From assembly GCA_945907765.1 (NCBI GenBank), contig CAMDTO010000006.1, positions 1 to 47,331 of the forward strand: DNA of 47,331 nt. The letters are read 5' to 3'. The notes beneath the pieces are model-generated. The model saw nothing but the letters and a program-made list of their open reading frames with translations, ran no database searches and was not told where the DNA came from. This DNA comes from Thermoflexus hugenholtzii JAD2 (lineage in GTDB: Bacteria > Chloroflexota > UBA11872 > UBA12225). A program made the position numbers and the translations under genes. Below are positions 19,031 through 25,575 of the stretch, one piece after another (position 1 is the stretch's first letter; each line of letters opens with the position of its first letter).

Positions 19031-20536
19031 CTACGTGGACGAGGACGCCGCTCGAACGGTCACGGTGCGCGGTGGACGCACGATAACCGCAACGATGAAT
19101 GCGGCGGCAGCGCACGCCACACTGACCGCGAAAACCGTCTGGAATCCCAGCATCAGTGCAGCCGACGGCGCCTCGAGCTCGGAGACCCCGGCCGGAGCAT
19201 TCGCGAGCACGACGCCGGTCCAGAGGGCACCGGCGGTTGCCTGTCCGAATGACTGGGCGAGGTTGCGGTTGAGGGCGACCATCCCGCCAACCAGGCCATA
19301 GCGTTCCCGCGGGGCACTCTCGTAGATGGCGCTGTTGTTCGGCACCAGGAAGAGCGACTGCCCAATCCCGATCACCAGCAGACTGATGAGCAGGGGCGTC
19401 GTTGTCCCGGTGTCCGGCAGGAAGACCAGTGAAAGCAGTCCCAGTGCGGTCGTGGTTGCCCCGATGCCCGCAAGGGTCCGTACCCCGATGCGGTCCGACA
19501 GGTAGCCGCTGATCGGGGCAATCGCCGCGCTCGTGGCCGGGATCACGATCAGTCTTGCCCCAATCTGGCTGGCCGGCAGGTGCAGGACAAGAGCCAGGTA
19601 GAAAGGCACGAGCAACCCGACCGGTGCGAGCGTGATGAACAGCAGGAAGGCCGATGCCAAGGCAGCGACAAAACCCTTGCTTTGGAAGAGCACCAGATCG
19701 ATCAGTGGGTGCGCCACCCGCCGTTCGACGACGACCAAGGCAACAATTGCGCCCATCCCGATGGCGATCGCACCGATGGTGAGCGGACTTTCCCATCCCC
19801 AGTGGGACCCTTGGGTCACACCCAGAAGCGTCGCGCCCGCACCAGTCACCAAAAGAATTGCCCCGGCAAGATCGAATGGTTGACCTGCCTGCCGTGGCGA
19901 CTTCCCGAGCAATCGCAATCCCATGAAGATCGCCATCATGCTGATCGGGACAGTCACGTAGAAGGCCCAGCGCCAGCCGATGAACTCGGTGATGAACCCG
20001 CCGATGACCGGCCCGGAGAGTAAACCGATGGAGACGACGGAACTCTGCAACCCCAGGGCCCGCCCACGTTCCTTCGCCGGGAATGCCGACGCCACGAGTG
20101 CCCCGGTGTTGGCCTGGATCAATGCGCCGGCAATGCCCTGGACGACCCGTGCAAGGATCAGCCAGTAGACACCGGGCGCGAGCCCACACAGGATTGACGC
20201 CAGTCCGAATGCACCGAACCCGAAGAGGAAGACGTCACGGCGACCGCGCAGGTCGGCAAGCTTGCCAGCCGGAAGCAGGAACCCGGTAACTGAAAGCACG
20301 TAGCCAAGCGACACCCACTGGGTGATGGTCAGCGCCGCGTCGAACTCCCGGGCCAGGGCCGGCAGCGCCACATTGACCACCCCACTGTCCAGGGTGACCA
20401 TGAAAATGCCACTGCCCGAGACAAACAGCACCTTCCACTTGAAGTAGGGGTCATCAGGTGGCGCAATAGGTGAAGTCGGCGGAGCGGACGTGGGGCGAAC
20501 CTGGTTCGCAAGTGCCTCGGGGGATTTCGAACTCAT
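19031..20536 (-). CDS. MFS efflux transporter, DHA2 (14-TM) family
   Basis: This 501-residue drug:proton antiporter is of the EmrB/QacA type. Family marks: motif C-like and D1 segment LDSGVVNVALPALAREF (near 50), motif A GKLADLRGRRDVFLFG (near 90), the RVVQGIAGALIQANTGALVASAFP segment (read as RVVQGIAGAL), motif C GLLSGPVIGGFI, and WRWAFYVTVPI typical of DHA2. Fourteen hydrophobic helices fit the length. The N-terminal 30 residues are Pro-rich and cytoplasmic. A GTG and an ATG follow each other at 20539 and 20536; the ATG is used here. No regulator gene is adjacent. It lies 103 bp downstream of the glutathione peroxidase gene, same strand, and 194 bp upstream of the SulP gene. Confidence 0.92.
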   Translation of the reverse strand: MSSKSPEALANQVRPTSAPPTSPIAPPDDPYFKWKVLFVSGSGIFMVTLDSGVVNVALPALAREFDAALTITQWVSLGYVLSVTGFLLPAGKLADLRGRRDVFLFGFGAFGLASILCGLAPGVYWLILARVVQGIAGALIQANTGALVASAFPAKERGRALGLQSSVVSIGLLSGPVIGGFITEFIGWRWAFYVTVPISMMAIFMGLRLLGKSPRQAGQPFDLAGAILLVTGAGATLLGVTQGSHWGWESPLTIGAIAIGMGAIVALVVVERRVAHPLIDLVLFQSKGFVAALASAFLLFITLAPVGLLVPFYLALVLHLPASQIGARLIVIPATSAAIAPISGYLSDRIGVRTLAGIGATTTALGLLSLVFLPDTGTTTPLLISLLVIGIGQSLFLVPNNSAIYESAPRERYGLVGGMVALNRNLAQSFGQATAGALWTGVVLANAPAGVSELEAPSAALMLGFQTVFAVSVACAAAAFIVAVIVRPPRTVTVRAASSST

Positions 20537-20639
20537 CACGGGATCCGATGCGTCTGCGGTTGTCAGGTTTCAGCGAGCAACGGCCCCTCTCGCGCCGCAA
20601 CGGCATAGGGGTAGGTCATTGGAAACGCCCCGGGGTGCA

Positions 20640-21155
20640 TCAATCGCGCGGGGCAGCTTCCTTGAGGGCTTGGTCGATGGCGTTCCGTATCAGCCGCGAA
20701 TCCGGGTCAGTTGCCGGCGCCCACCGGCCGACCAGTGTCCCGTCGCGGCCGATCAGGAACTTCGCAAAGTTCCACTCAACCTTTCCCGGCTTCAACGGTT
20801 GCGTGGTCAACCAGTGGTAGACCGGATGGATCTCCCGTCCCACGCAGTGCACCTTGTCGAACAGTCGGTAGGTCGCACCGTACTGTCGCCGACAGAACGC
20901 GGCGATTTCCGGCAGGTCACCCGGTTCCTCGTTGGCGAAGTCATTGCAGGGAAACCCGAGAACGCGGAAGCCCTTTGGCCCGTACCGCTTCTCGAGGACG
21001 GCCAGCACACCGTGCTGGGGAGTGTGGCCTCAATAACTCGCCGTGTTGACGATCATCAGGACATCGCCACGGTACGGCGCGAGGGTCGTGGGGTTGCCTT
21101 CGGCATCATTGACCGTGATGCTGTAGATCGTTTCCGGTGTCTTTGGTGCGGGCAT
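20640..21155 (-). CDS. Selenocysteine-containing glutathione peroxidase (in-frame TGA at active site)
   Basis: This gene encodes a 171-residue thiol peroxidase of the glutathione peroxidase family, which reduces hydrogen peroxide and lipid peroxides. The frame from ATG 21155 (AAGGA 8 nt upstream) reads through one TGA at 21030-21032, codon 42. The context there, NTASY-U-GHTPQH, is exactly the family active site (usual form NVASxCGxTxQ). The rest is complete: FPCNDF (68-73), WNF (128-130), with a normal TGA stop at 20640. A perfect hairpin with GGU loop starts 11 nt after the TGA. The family residue Gln in FPCNQF is Asp here (D72), which is unusual. Gene callers would start at 21008 and lose the active site. 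The alternative is a nonsense pseudogene, but the intact flanks and the hairpin argue against it. Confidence 0.85.
21002..21018 (-). promoter_or_regulatory. Candidate bacterial SECIS hairpin
   Basis: On the minus strand CCAGCAC (21018-21012), GGT (21011-21009) and GTGCTGG (21008-21002) form a perfect 7-bp stem with a three-base GGU loop. The loop starts 18 nt after the in-frame TGA, the same spacing region as the SelB-binding loop of Escherichia coli fdhF, which also has GGU in the loop. It lies inside the coding sequence, as bacterial SECIS elements do. The bulged U seen in the E. coli element is not obvious. Confidence 0.75.
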
Positions 21156-21182
21156 TGTCGGTGTCCTTCATCGGGGAATTCC

Positions 21183-21202
21183 CCTTTCCCGCTTGGGAAA
21201 GG
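21183..21202. repeat. Perfect hairpin, REP-like palindrome
   Basis: CCTTTCCC and GGGAAAGG form an 8-bp stem with loop GCTT, between the sugar isomerase stop and the peroxidase start. It is preceded by the palindrome GGGGAATTCCCC. The core ATTCCCCTTTCCCG resembles ATTCCCCTCTCCCG at 27885, so both may be copies of a dispersed palindromic element. No T-run follows on the minus strand, so a terminator role is doubtful. Confidence 0.55.
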
Positions 21203-21273: not shown

Positions 21274-22125
21274 TCACGCAACTGGCGCGAACGTGACCCC
21301 ACCCCGCTTGGCTGCATCGGTCAGCGTGCGGTAACTCCGGGCGGCGACCTCTGCGGGATCGTAGCCCGGCCGGTTCTGCACCATCTTGCTGATCTCGACG
21401 GTGATTGCCCCGTCGTAGCCAGCCTTCTCGATCGCTGGCAGGTACGCCGCGTAGTCGAATGTTCCCTCGCCGGGCACAAGGAACTCGAACCCCGGCGCAA
21501 TGCCACGCTGGTCCTTCATGTGGGTATGCACCGCGTATCGGGTCAGCTGGGGGACATATGTATGGAAATCACAGCCCATCACTTCAAAGTGGCTGTTGTC
21601 GAAATTCAAGCGGAAGTTCGGTGAGTCCACGGCGTCCAGGACCCACTGCACGCGGTCCGGCAGGTCTAGTGCCTGCCCGACGTGCGGTTCCAATGCGACG
21701 ATCACGCCAAGGTGCGCCCCGGCACGCGCCAGTTCCGCGAAATTGTCGGCAATCTGTTGCCGGTGGGTACCGAACTGTTCCGGGAGGCCGAATCCCATGG
21801 TCACCACACACGGCGGCCCAGACGGTCCTGCCAGGCGTACGGCGAGTTCCATGCCGGCGATCACCCGGGCGCACGCATGGGCACGCACCGCCGGGTCGGT
21901 CTCAAGCAGGTTCCCGTGGCAGGCGATTGACGGCAATTCCAATCCGGACTCGTCAAGCGCGCGCCTGATATCCCGCACCTCGGTATCCGTCACCGTCATC
22001 GGGTTGAGGGCATCCGTATCCCCGCCGACCAATTCGATCGAGTGATAGCCCAATCCATGCACCAGCGATATCTGGTCCCGAACCGGCATCGTCGACATCG
22101 CCCACGCACTGAATCCCAGACGCAT
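21274..22125 (-). CDS. Sugar phosphate isomerase/epimerase-like TIM-barrel protein
   Basis: This 283-residue protein is of the xylose isomerase-like/AP endonuclease 2 superfamily. The barrel is complete from MRLGFSAWAMSTMPV to the last strand ITVEISKMV. The four usual metal ligands are visible in order: Glu in IVALEPHVG, Asp in LNFDNSHFEV, His in VHTHMKDQRG, and Glu in TVEIS. Relatives include sugar isomerases, epimerases and inosose dehydratase; the reaction is not assignable from the sequence. ATG 22125 is preferred to GTG 22131 because GAGG then has a 6-nt spacing. It is the first gene of a minus-strand run with the peroxidase, MFS and SulP genes, and is divergent from the copper operon. 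Confidence 0.85.
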   Translation of the reverse strand: MRLGFSAWAMSTMPVRDQISLVHGLGYHSIELVGGDTDALNPMTVTDTEVRDIRRALDESGLELPSIACHGNLLETDPAVRAHACARVIAGMELAVRLAGPSGPPCVVTMGFGLPEQFGTHRQQIADNFAELARAGAHLGVIVALEPHVGQALDLPDRVQWVLDAVDSPNFRLNFDNSHFEVMGCDFHTYVPQLTRYAVHTHMKDQRGIAPGFEFLVPGEGTFDYAAYLPAIEKAGYDGAITVEISKMVQNRPGYDPAEVAARSYRTLTDAAKRGGVTFAPVA

Positions 22126-22206
22126 TGTCACCCTCGCTTCATTCGTACGCAGTCACGATACCGCCGCACGGGGTCCCGCGTCGCCCATTCCCCCGATCCG
22201 GGTTTT

Positions 22207-22303: not shown

Positions 22304-22702
22304 GTGGCTACACCAAACCGCCGCTCCCATGTCCTGAACCGCTTGAAGAGCATCGACGGTCACCTCCGGGGGGTGATGCGCATGGTTGAGGACGATGCGT
22401 ACTGCATCGATGTCATCCAGCAGTTGCAGGCGGTTCAGGGTGCGGTCGGACGTGTCGCTTCGGTCTTGCTGGAAGACCATCTCCAGACCTGCGTCACCCA
22501 TGCCATCCAGGGAAACGACAGCGACGAGCGGACGCGTGTCATCGGAGAACTCCTTCGATTGTTCGACGCCGGTGCACGTACCACCAGTGACGAAGTGTCG
22601 CCTGGCGCCGACGCCACGATTGCGAACGGGGAGGTTGGTGGCCCCTTCCAGCATGCGTCCGCGTCTCCCGCCGTCCCCGCCGGGGCCCGGATACCGCGAT
22701 GA
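22304..22702 (+). CDS. csoR: Copper-sensing repressor, CsoR/DUF156 family
   Basis: This 132-residue all-helical DNA-binding repressor releases the copper operon when Cu(I) binds. The C-H-C ligand set is complete: C34 in DDAYCIDV, H59 in LLEDHL, and C63 in LQTC. The N-terminal segment [20 protein letters not shown] is the family's basic helix. About 45 residues of Asp/Ala/Gly-rich tail after residue 90 extend beyond the short CsoR core. GTG 22304 is preferred (GAGAG upstream) because the family starts here; an ATG at 22247 would place the start 16 bp from the operator. Its stop overlaps the ATG of the copA gene (ATGA at 22699), so the two are translationally coupled. Confidence 0.93.
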
Positions 22703-25575
22703 CCGTTGACGCACCCCACACCACGCAATCACCCGGTGAGCACGAGTCGCTTCGAGTATCCCCACCGCGCGAAACCCATGAGCTCGCATCAGGCGAAGTG
22801 ATCCTCCAGATCACGGGCATGACCTGCGCGTCGTGCGTACGCCGGGTGGAAAAGGCGACCCTGAAAGTCCCCGGGATCGTTGAAGCGTCCGTCAACCTTG
22901 CCACGGAGCGCGCGCGCATCCGGTTCGCGGACGGCGTTGTCCTTGACGCCGCCGTTCTGCTCGATGCCGTCCGCCGTGCGGGGTACGACGCGCACGTCGT
23001 ACCCGACCACGTGCAGCAAACCGTGGTCGTGCAGGATTCCCCCGACACCGCAATTGAGATTGCCGGTGGGTCCGGCGCGGGCGAACTTGCCTCGCGGGCC
23101 GGCATCGGTCTTGCTGCGTATTCCCTCGTGACCTCTGGCGTCATCATGTCCCTGATGTTCTGGCCGGGAGCTGCTAGGGGGTGGCCCAACCTTCCGGTCT
23201 CCATGCAGGTTCTCCATTGGACCTTGCTCGCGATGGCGACACCGGTCCAGTTCTGGGCGGGTGCCGGTTTCTACCGGAGTGCTTGGAACGCCCTGCGTCA
23301 CGGGTCGGCGAACATGCACTCGCTCGTCGCTGTCGGAACGACGGCGGCGTATGCGTGGAGTGCCGTCGTCACCGTCTTCCCCGACTGGTTTGCGGGATCC
23401 GGTGTCGCCGCTGAAACATGGTTCGATACGTCGACCGTGATCATCGGGCTCATCCTGGCCGGGCGGTACCTCGAGGACCGCGCGCGTCGCCAGACTGGTC
23501 TCGCAATTGGCAAGCTGCTGTCCCTGCAACCACCTGAAGCGATCCTGTTGGATGGTGCGATCGAACGCCGGGTTGCCGTTGCCACCGTCCGGGTAGGGGA
23601 CCTCCTGCGAGTCCGGCCCGGGTCTCGCGTCCCGGTCGATGGCACGGTACTTGAGGGCCGTTCCAGCGTGGACGAATCGATGCTGACTGGCGAAAGCATG
23701 CCGGTCTCCCGCGCGGCGGGCGGTCAGGTGATTGGTGCCACGCTCAATGGGACGGGCAGCTTTGTCATGCAGGCCACTCGCGTCGGGCGCGATACGACGC
23801 TCGCCCAGGTCGTCCGCCTCGTTGAGGACGCCCAAGCCTCCAAGGCACCTGTCCAGCGCCTCGCCGACCGGGTCGCAGAGGTCTTTGTACCGGTCGTGTT
23901 CATCCTCGCCGCGGTGACGTTCGTTCTCTGGTGGTTCCTCGGGCCGGAACCCCGGATCGGGCACGCGCTCTCCTCCCTGATCGCCGTCCTGATCATCGCC
24001 TGTCCGTGTGCGATGGGCCTTGCCACGCCAACAGCCATCATCGTCGCTACTGGCGAAGGGGCCTCGCGAGGTGTCCTGATCCGTGGGGGTGATGCCCTGG
24101 AGCGCGCTGGCCTCGTCAAGACCGTTGTCCTCGACAAGACAGGAACGCTCACGACGGGGCATCCCGCGCTGACCGATCTCTGGCTTGATCCTGCCTTTCC
24201 GGGTGCTGGTGCAAGTGCGACGAGGACCACGATCCTCCGTCTGGTCGCCGGTGCCGAACGCCAATCGGAACATCCGCTTGGCGAGGCGATCGTCCGCGCC
24301 GCCCGGGCCGAGGGCATCGACATTCCGGAACCCGTGCAGTTCTCGTCGGTGCCCGGAAGAGGACTGGAGGCCACGGTAGACGGTCGGCATCTCATCATCG
24401 GATCGGCTGATCACCTTGGGTCGCATGGCATTCCGGTTGGATCGTTGCTTGCGGAAGCGGCGTCGGTCTCCCGGTGTGGACGCACCGCAATCCTTGTCGC
24501 CATCGACGGCCTCCCCGCTGCGGTATTCGGCGTCGCGGACACCTTGAAGCCCACATCGGTCGCGGCGGTTGAGGCATTTCGTTCCCTCGGTCTTGATGTC
24601 TGGATGCTGACCGGAGACAGTGCGGCGACGGCAGCGGCGATTGCCCTCGAGGCCGGGATTGCCATGGACCGTGTCATCTCGGGCGTATTGCCAAGCGGCA
24701 AGGCGGACGCGATTGCCCGGCTTCAGGCCGGTGGCAACATCGTCGCGATGGTCGGGGATGGCGTCAATGACGCACCCGCGCTTGCCCGTGCTGACCTTGG
24801 CGTCGCTGTCGGGACGGGCACCGACGTCGCGATTGCCGCCTCAGACATCACGCTTGTCGGTGGCGATCTCAACGGCGTCGTCGAAGCGATCCGGCTGAGC
24901 CGCCAAACCGTCACGGTCATCAAGCAGAACCTTTTCTGGGCGTTTGCCTACAACCTGATCCTGATCCCCGTGGCGATGGGGGTGCTGTATCCCTTCACCG
25001 GCACGATCCTGAACCCCGGCCTTGCTGCCGGTGCGATGGCGCTGTCAAGCGTCTCGGTGATCACCAACTCGCTTCGGCTCCGTCGCGGGTCTCGCCCAGC
25101 CGATCCGGTCGTCCCTGCAAGGACCCGTCTTCTGGCTACGGCGGGCGCACTCGGTATCGTCATCGGTGGCGCTGGTCTCGGGCTTGCCATCCAGTCAATC
25201 GGATTGAAGGCACCGGCGAAACTTGATCCGGTCGCGATTGCCGTGGTTGCGCGCGACGGGGCCTTTTCACCAACGTCAATGCGCCTGACTGTCGGGCAAC
25301 CGGTCACGATCAGTTTCGAGAACCGTGGAAGCACGGCGCACGACCTCACGGTGCTTGGTGGTATCCGGGTCAGTGACCTGGTGGTGACCGATGCCATGGC
25401 CGGGGCTGCCCATGTGATGGGTGGAACCAATCCGGTCAGGGTCGCTGCAAGTCCGGGAAAGACCGGCACGATTGCGTTCGTCCCCGTCAGTGCCGGTGTC
25501 TACCCCCTGATGTGCACCGAGGCAGGGCAGAAGGAGGCCGGCATGGTCGCCGCCCTCACCGTGGTCGCCAAATGA
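22699..25575 (+). CDS. copA: Cu(I) P1B-ATPase fused to a C-terminal cupredoxin domain
   Basis: This 958-residue copper exporter has an N-terminal HMA domain with CxxC at C43 and C46, a membrane core with the CPC metal site (C435, P436, C437), the phosphorylation motif DKTGT (D479), TGES in the actuator domain, the HP motif in SEHPLGEA, and [10 protein letters not shown]. Unlike CopA from model bacteria, the last ATPase helix is followed by one more hydrophobic helix (about 810-832) and a cupredoxin-like domain (about 843-958): [14 protein letters not shown]881 in TAHDL, C939 in PLMCTEAG, and M949. The extra helix should place this domain outside the membrane, where it could receive exported copper. 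The fourth type-1 ligand is Q944 instead of His. It is co-transcribed with csoR, the cupredoxin gene and copZ. Confidence 0.95.

Follow-up and report, generated by a model that had tools for sequence, protein, structure and literature searches.

Gene and reading frame

The window, the whole stretch of DNA that was analysed (47,331 nucleotides), is contig 6 of a 3.3-Mb assembly with 270 contigs, which is 87% complete. On its minus strand it carries a frame of the glutathione peroxidase (GPx) family, which runs from ATG 21155 to the terminal TGA at 20642-20640 and is interrupted by a sole internal stop, a TGA at 21032-21030. The features of the locus are the following:

20640..21155, minus strand: predicted selenocysteine (Sec)-containing glutathione peroxidase-like gene, 171 aa, read through one TGA
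21030..21032, minus strand: TGA Sec codon at the catalytic position, residue 42 (TGA in 7/7 intact Sec sequences, Cys codon in paralogues)
21002..21018, minus strand: bacterial SECIS-type hairpin CCAGCAC-GGU-GUGCUGG, 7 bp, loop GGU (apical loop 21011-21009)
20940..20942, minus strand: codon 72, Asp instead of the tetrad Gln (FPCN-D-F, against FPCD-Q-F in the Cys paralogue; alignments, residue list)
20769..20774, minus strand: Trp128-Asn129 of the WNF motif, two further tetrad residues (alignments)
21163..21168, minus strand: probable ribosome-binding site AAGGAC, 5' of ATG 21155 (read from the sequence)
21274..22131, minus strand: upstream gene, xylose-isomerase-like TIM barrel (PF01261), which adjoins GPx in genomes G034 and G029 too
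19031..20539, minus strand: downstream gene, MFS transporter (PF07690), which adjoins GPx in G034 and G030 too

The read-through translation is MPAPKTPETIYSITVNDAEGNPTTLAPYRGDVLMIVNTASYUGHTPQHGVLAVLEKRYGPKGFRVLGFPCNDFANEEPGDLPEIAAFCRRQYGATYRLFDKVHCVGREIHPVYHWLTTQPLKPGKVEWNFAKFLIGRDGTLVGRWAPATDPDSRLIRNAIDQALKEAAPRD, with the motif NTASY-U-GHTPQ around codon 42. It belongs to Pfam GSHPx (PF00255) by a full-length match well above the cut-off (107 bits, cut-off 27, profile positions 1-107 of 108). Its best solved relatives are glutathione peroxidases, among them 6vpd, with which 161 residues could be aligned (E 5e-37). The AlphaFold2 model has a pLDDT of 82, with a poor loop at 73-76, and reaches a TM of 0.85 to GPx structures. 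An earlier note on this DNA had described the same frame with its one in-frame TGA and a full glutathione peroxidase on both flanks of the TGA; the coordinates were found again on the minus strand, and the profile match and the 6vpd alignment bear out the second claim. The note had also predicted that a gene caller would begin at 21008 and drop the active site. Indeed, the standard-code open reading frame covers 20640-21008, starts with GTG and encodes 122 aa from which the catalytic residue is lost.

All three genes keep their order (TIM barrel - GPx - MFS) in G034; G029 retains the pair TIM barrel - GPx, and G030 the pair GPx - MFS. In the leader 5' of the GPx start a perfect inverted repeat, CCTTTCCC-AAGC-GGGAAAGG, occupies 21183-21202 on the minus strand; it is kept in both close relatives and is followed by no T-run. 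Further along, at 22699-25572 on the plus strand, a heavy-metal P-type ATPase (HMA, E1-E2 ATPase) is encoded, with a cupredoxin-like domain at its C-terminus (residues 842-940). A coding-potential scan of the window for more TGA-interrupted genes gave weak candidates only and is uninformative, because the scan missed the GPx itself.

A SECIS-type hairpin downstream of the TGA

The hairpin sequence was compared with the published bSECIS constraints, which ask for a loop of 3-9 nt with G in the first two places, an upper stem of 4-16 bp and a spacing of 16-37 nt (PMC13188914). With 18 nt between UGA and loop the window hairpin lies within these constraints, so that the search for a SECIS near 20990-21040, which the earlier note had proposed, yielded a SECIS-like hairpin at the right place. 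GTG 21008, the start of the standard-code frame, is the first codon of the hairpin 3' arm.

This position bears on the possibility that the locus encodes two separate proteins, a 41-aa leader and a 122-aa protein from GTG 21008. The standard-code frame does exist. However, neither the catalytic strand nor the catalytic residue would be contained in the 122-aa part, the GTG is accounted for by the hairpin, and by eye no ribosome-binding site precedes it, the hairpin 5' arm occupying that place. We regard two proteins as very improbable.

The stem reads GCAGCAC/GUGCUGC in G027 and GCAGUA-CGUGC-UACUGC in G021 and G022, always at the same place. Two of the seven pairs are compensatory across the orthologues, both sides having changed while the position stayed constant. 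In the alignment of the hairpin 95.9% of cells are paired and the covariation score is 0.299, with two pairs and about four independent lineages as its basis; none of 500 shuffles and no slid version matched it. Among the Cys paralogues tested no comparable hairpin was found at the SECIS position; in one paralogue a strong hairpin lies farther 3'.

Tests on single sequences were less telling. The window hairpin shows no excess stability over shuffles (z -0.31), and synonymous recoding equals the hairpin score in 1-18% of trials (P 0.01-0.18), because the amino acids already favour the hairpin. Synonymous codons are kept at 5/9 positions in the element versus 19/52 in the rest of the gene, which is only moderately above. 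Neither the MFE z-score nor the recoding of individual sequences was decisive for the hairpin. The QHGVL codons (CAG CAC GGT GTG CTG) form an inverted repeat in themselves, so the protein sequence that follows Sec may have been shaped by the RNA.

Conservation of the TGA codon

The Sec form occurs in seven further genomes of the class, in six of them intact and in one partial (G030). The class placement of the host rests on its nearest named records by GPx, Chloroflexi bacterium UBA2235 and Chloroflexi MAG CH-Oct18-156 (95-96% identical), and on the kinship labels of the genome set. UBA2235 itself has been proposed as a class-level lineage of Chloroflexota (PMC10608941). Identity to the window GPx is 96 and 95% in two genomes of the same genus, 66% in G029, 56% in G027 and 41-42% in G021 and G022, which belong to another family of the class than the window genome. 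Codon 42 is TGA in 8/8 genomes, i.e., three assemblies of the genus and five others of the class, from two families. Relatives show either Sec or Cys at this column, with TGA in every orthologue, as the alignment suggested in the earlier note was to reveal for a selenoprotein.

Could the TGA be a mutated or misread Cys codon in a pseudogene or a faulty sequence, the downstream half being no longer made? A TGA does break the gene, and the G030 copy (L037, minus strand, 1426-1734) ends early: after residue 74, past FPCND, unrelated sequence takes over and the MFS gene comes next. Yet the same codon in eight genomes of two families rules out chance or sequencing error, and the downstream frame is intact in seven of the eight, the window included. 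In the same-genus pairs dN/dS against the window is 0.05-0.11 upstream of the TGA and 0.06-0.08 downstream, so that both sides of the TGA are under purifying selection; for distant pairs dN/dS says little because dS is near saturation. We give this explanation hardly any weight.

Decay of the downstream part, which the earlier note had named as evidence against a selenoprotein, is thus absent from six of the seven orthologues and seen in the truncated seventh. The missing part in G030 may be a real loss or one made by the assembly. The G030 hairpin has an A-C mismatch and the genome still has tRNA-Sec; the gene may be undergoing decay.

In a survey of 400 Chloroflexota GPx matches were obtained in 49 genomes. 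Outside the class every match that was read has Cys, and no internal TGA is flagged in the remaining, unread matches. Some hits were flagged '1 TAG', and Sec as UAG in other Chloroflexota was considered; on reading, the TAGs proved to be normal terminal stops, with Cys at the catalytic codon, so the idea was dropped. Apart from this survey, a GPx match on a Microbacterium plasmid (L083, NZ_CP072877.1) comes in two pieces with 48% identity and no annotated gene, and is possibly a broken or unannotated gene. In the best tree the Sec forms arise once, a result with weak support (62/27; 70% of bootstraps) and long branches.

Selenium machinery of the host

The earlier note had advised searching the genome for selA, selB, selD and tRNA-Sec, and all four were found in the same assembly: SelA with 479 bits, SelB with 337 bits including its C-terminal part, SelD with 349 bits and tRNA-Sec with 72.5 bits and anticodon TCA (UCA in the RNA). 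The genome thus holds selA, selB, selC and selD, the set by which a bacterial selenoprotein gene is judged. Across the class SelA is present in 39/41 genomes and tRNA-Sec in 34/41. The SelD gene (L022, contig C72) is interrupted by its own in-frame TGA (LTTLASCAG-U-ASK), which makes it a second gene that needs Sec decoding and brings the genome to at least two predicted selenoproteins. A hairpin scan of the SelD gene gave 7 bp stems at 32 and 39 nt, none clearly comparable to the GPx element.

There is next to no chance that TGA has been reassigned to a standard amino acid such as Trp or Gly, or is read through without Sec: the frame is open when TGA is taken as a residue, but the gene has TGA as its own terminal stop, the long frames in the window end in TGA more often than in any other stop (23/44), and the internal TGA lies exactly at the Sec/Cys catalytic column in a genome with a complete Sec apparatus. 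The terminal stops of the seven intact Sec genes are TGA, TGA, TGA, TAG, TAA, TAA and TAA.

Active site and probable reductant

U42, W128 and N129 are invariant in the alignments, so the Sec/Cys, Trp and Asn of the GPx tetrad are in place. The tetrad Gln, which is usual and not required for membership in PF00255, is replaced in the window GPx. Asp72 is found in 7/7 intact Sec forms. Gln is present in the genome's own Cys paralogue, and also in Hyr1 and most Cys forms (FPCNQF). As Asp also stands at this column in some Cys forms (L044, L053, L060, L065), it is neither a bar to family membership nor a marker of Sec, and Asp as a Sec-exclusive trait was ruled out on these grounds. The exchange could alter the activity. 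Among the Cys forms branching nearest the Sec forms, L044 (G240) has FPANDF and L048 (G149) FPANNF, i.e., Asp or Asn for the tetrad Gln.

A Cys of the resolving type (Cys88) is present in the genus and in G027, and absent in G029, G021 and G022. No match to glutathione synthetase (PF02955) was found in the 87%-complete assembly, hence glutathione is probably not the reductant. Thioredoxin or another thiol appears more likely, the absence of PF02955 being suggestive only.

Relation to known glutathione peroxidases

That Sec-containing peroxidases occur in some bacteria, as stated in the earlier note, agrees with the literature. A survey of 2006 listed one bacterial Sec-GPx case, in Treponema denticola, and Chloroflexi with three selenoproteins in three families (PMC1794560). 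Five Sec-GPx sequences came from the Sargasso Sea (PMC1088965) and 40 from the Global Ocean Sampling set (PMC2398784), and a review of 2026 lists a bacterial Sec GPX-like family with PF00255, the motif UxxT and the example WP_010957027.1 (PMC13188914). Among open-licence literature no paper on Sec-GPx in UBA2235-related Chloroflexota was found. The window gene has in common with the bacterial Sec GPX-like proteins the family, the catalytic in-frame UGA, the UGxT motif (UGHT in this case) and a SECIS-type hairpin directly after it, and differs in phylum (Chloroflexota). It is almost certainly a true selenoprotein gene that joins an already known bacterial Sec-GPx family, which is not surprising. 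Its Asp is a departure from the usual GPx tetrad.

With mammalian GPX4 the window GPx shares the fold (TM about 0.83), Sec at the same place and the WNF motif, at about 33% identity, whereas the GPX4 tetrad is Sec-Gln-Trp-Asn and that of the window GPx has Asp for Gln. The human GPX4 row of the alignment serves as illustration only. In eukaryotes the SECIS is located in the 3'UTR, unlike the hairpin of the window gene.

The Cys GPx paralogue of the same genome (L001/L038, contig C224, NTASKCGLTPQY) is of the same family with 42% identity and coexists with the Sec form, but has a TGC Cys codon, keeps the tetrad Gln and lacks a hairpin at the SECIS position; it branches elsewhere in the tree. 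Yeast Hyr1/Gpx3, a thioredoxin-dependent Cys GPx, also has a Cys at the resolving position (FCQLNYG, in the window FCRRQYG). The Sec orthologues do not all share this Cys: L033, L035 and L036 have Met or Ala there.

Interpretation

An in-frame UGA at the Cys/Sec column that is conserved among orthologues, the Sec machinery and the SECIS-like hairpin all support the reading as a selenoprotein GPx, which had been put forward in the earlier note. We consider it almost certain that the gene encodes a Sec-containing enzyme of the GPx family. In the genomic sequences the decoding apparatus and the conservation of codon and hairpin are evident; Sec incorporation, peroxidase activity and the reductant are predicted from established knowledge of these families. 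UGA codon 42 would be decoded by Sec-tRNA-Sec, delivered by SelB, which would recognise the hairpin just downstream of the UGA, and a terminal UGA would end translation because the hairpin element is absent there. Sec42 would then reduce a hydroperoxide to its alcohol, itself being oxidised to the selenenic acid, and would be regenerated by a thiol.

More tentatively, and with rather less than even chances, the Sec forms of the UBA2235-related Chloroflexota might represent a distinct Sec-GPx subfamily with a Sec-Asp-Trp-Asn centre and a reductant other than glutathione, in which an acid is tolerated or needed in place of Gln and the residues after Sec (QHGVL/QYVLL) are set by the RNA hairpin and not by the enzyme.

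For annotation, the gene is a well-supported case of the loss of an active site by standard gene callers, the wrong start sitting on the SECIS element itself. For enzymology, it is a naturally occurring example of a GPx tetrad with Asp for Gln. Finally, it puts Sec-dependent peroxidase chemistry in an uncultured lineage of Chloroflexota in which nearly all sampled genomes have the Sec apparatus.
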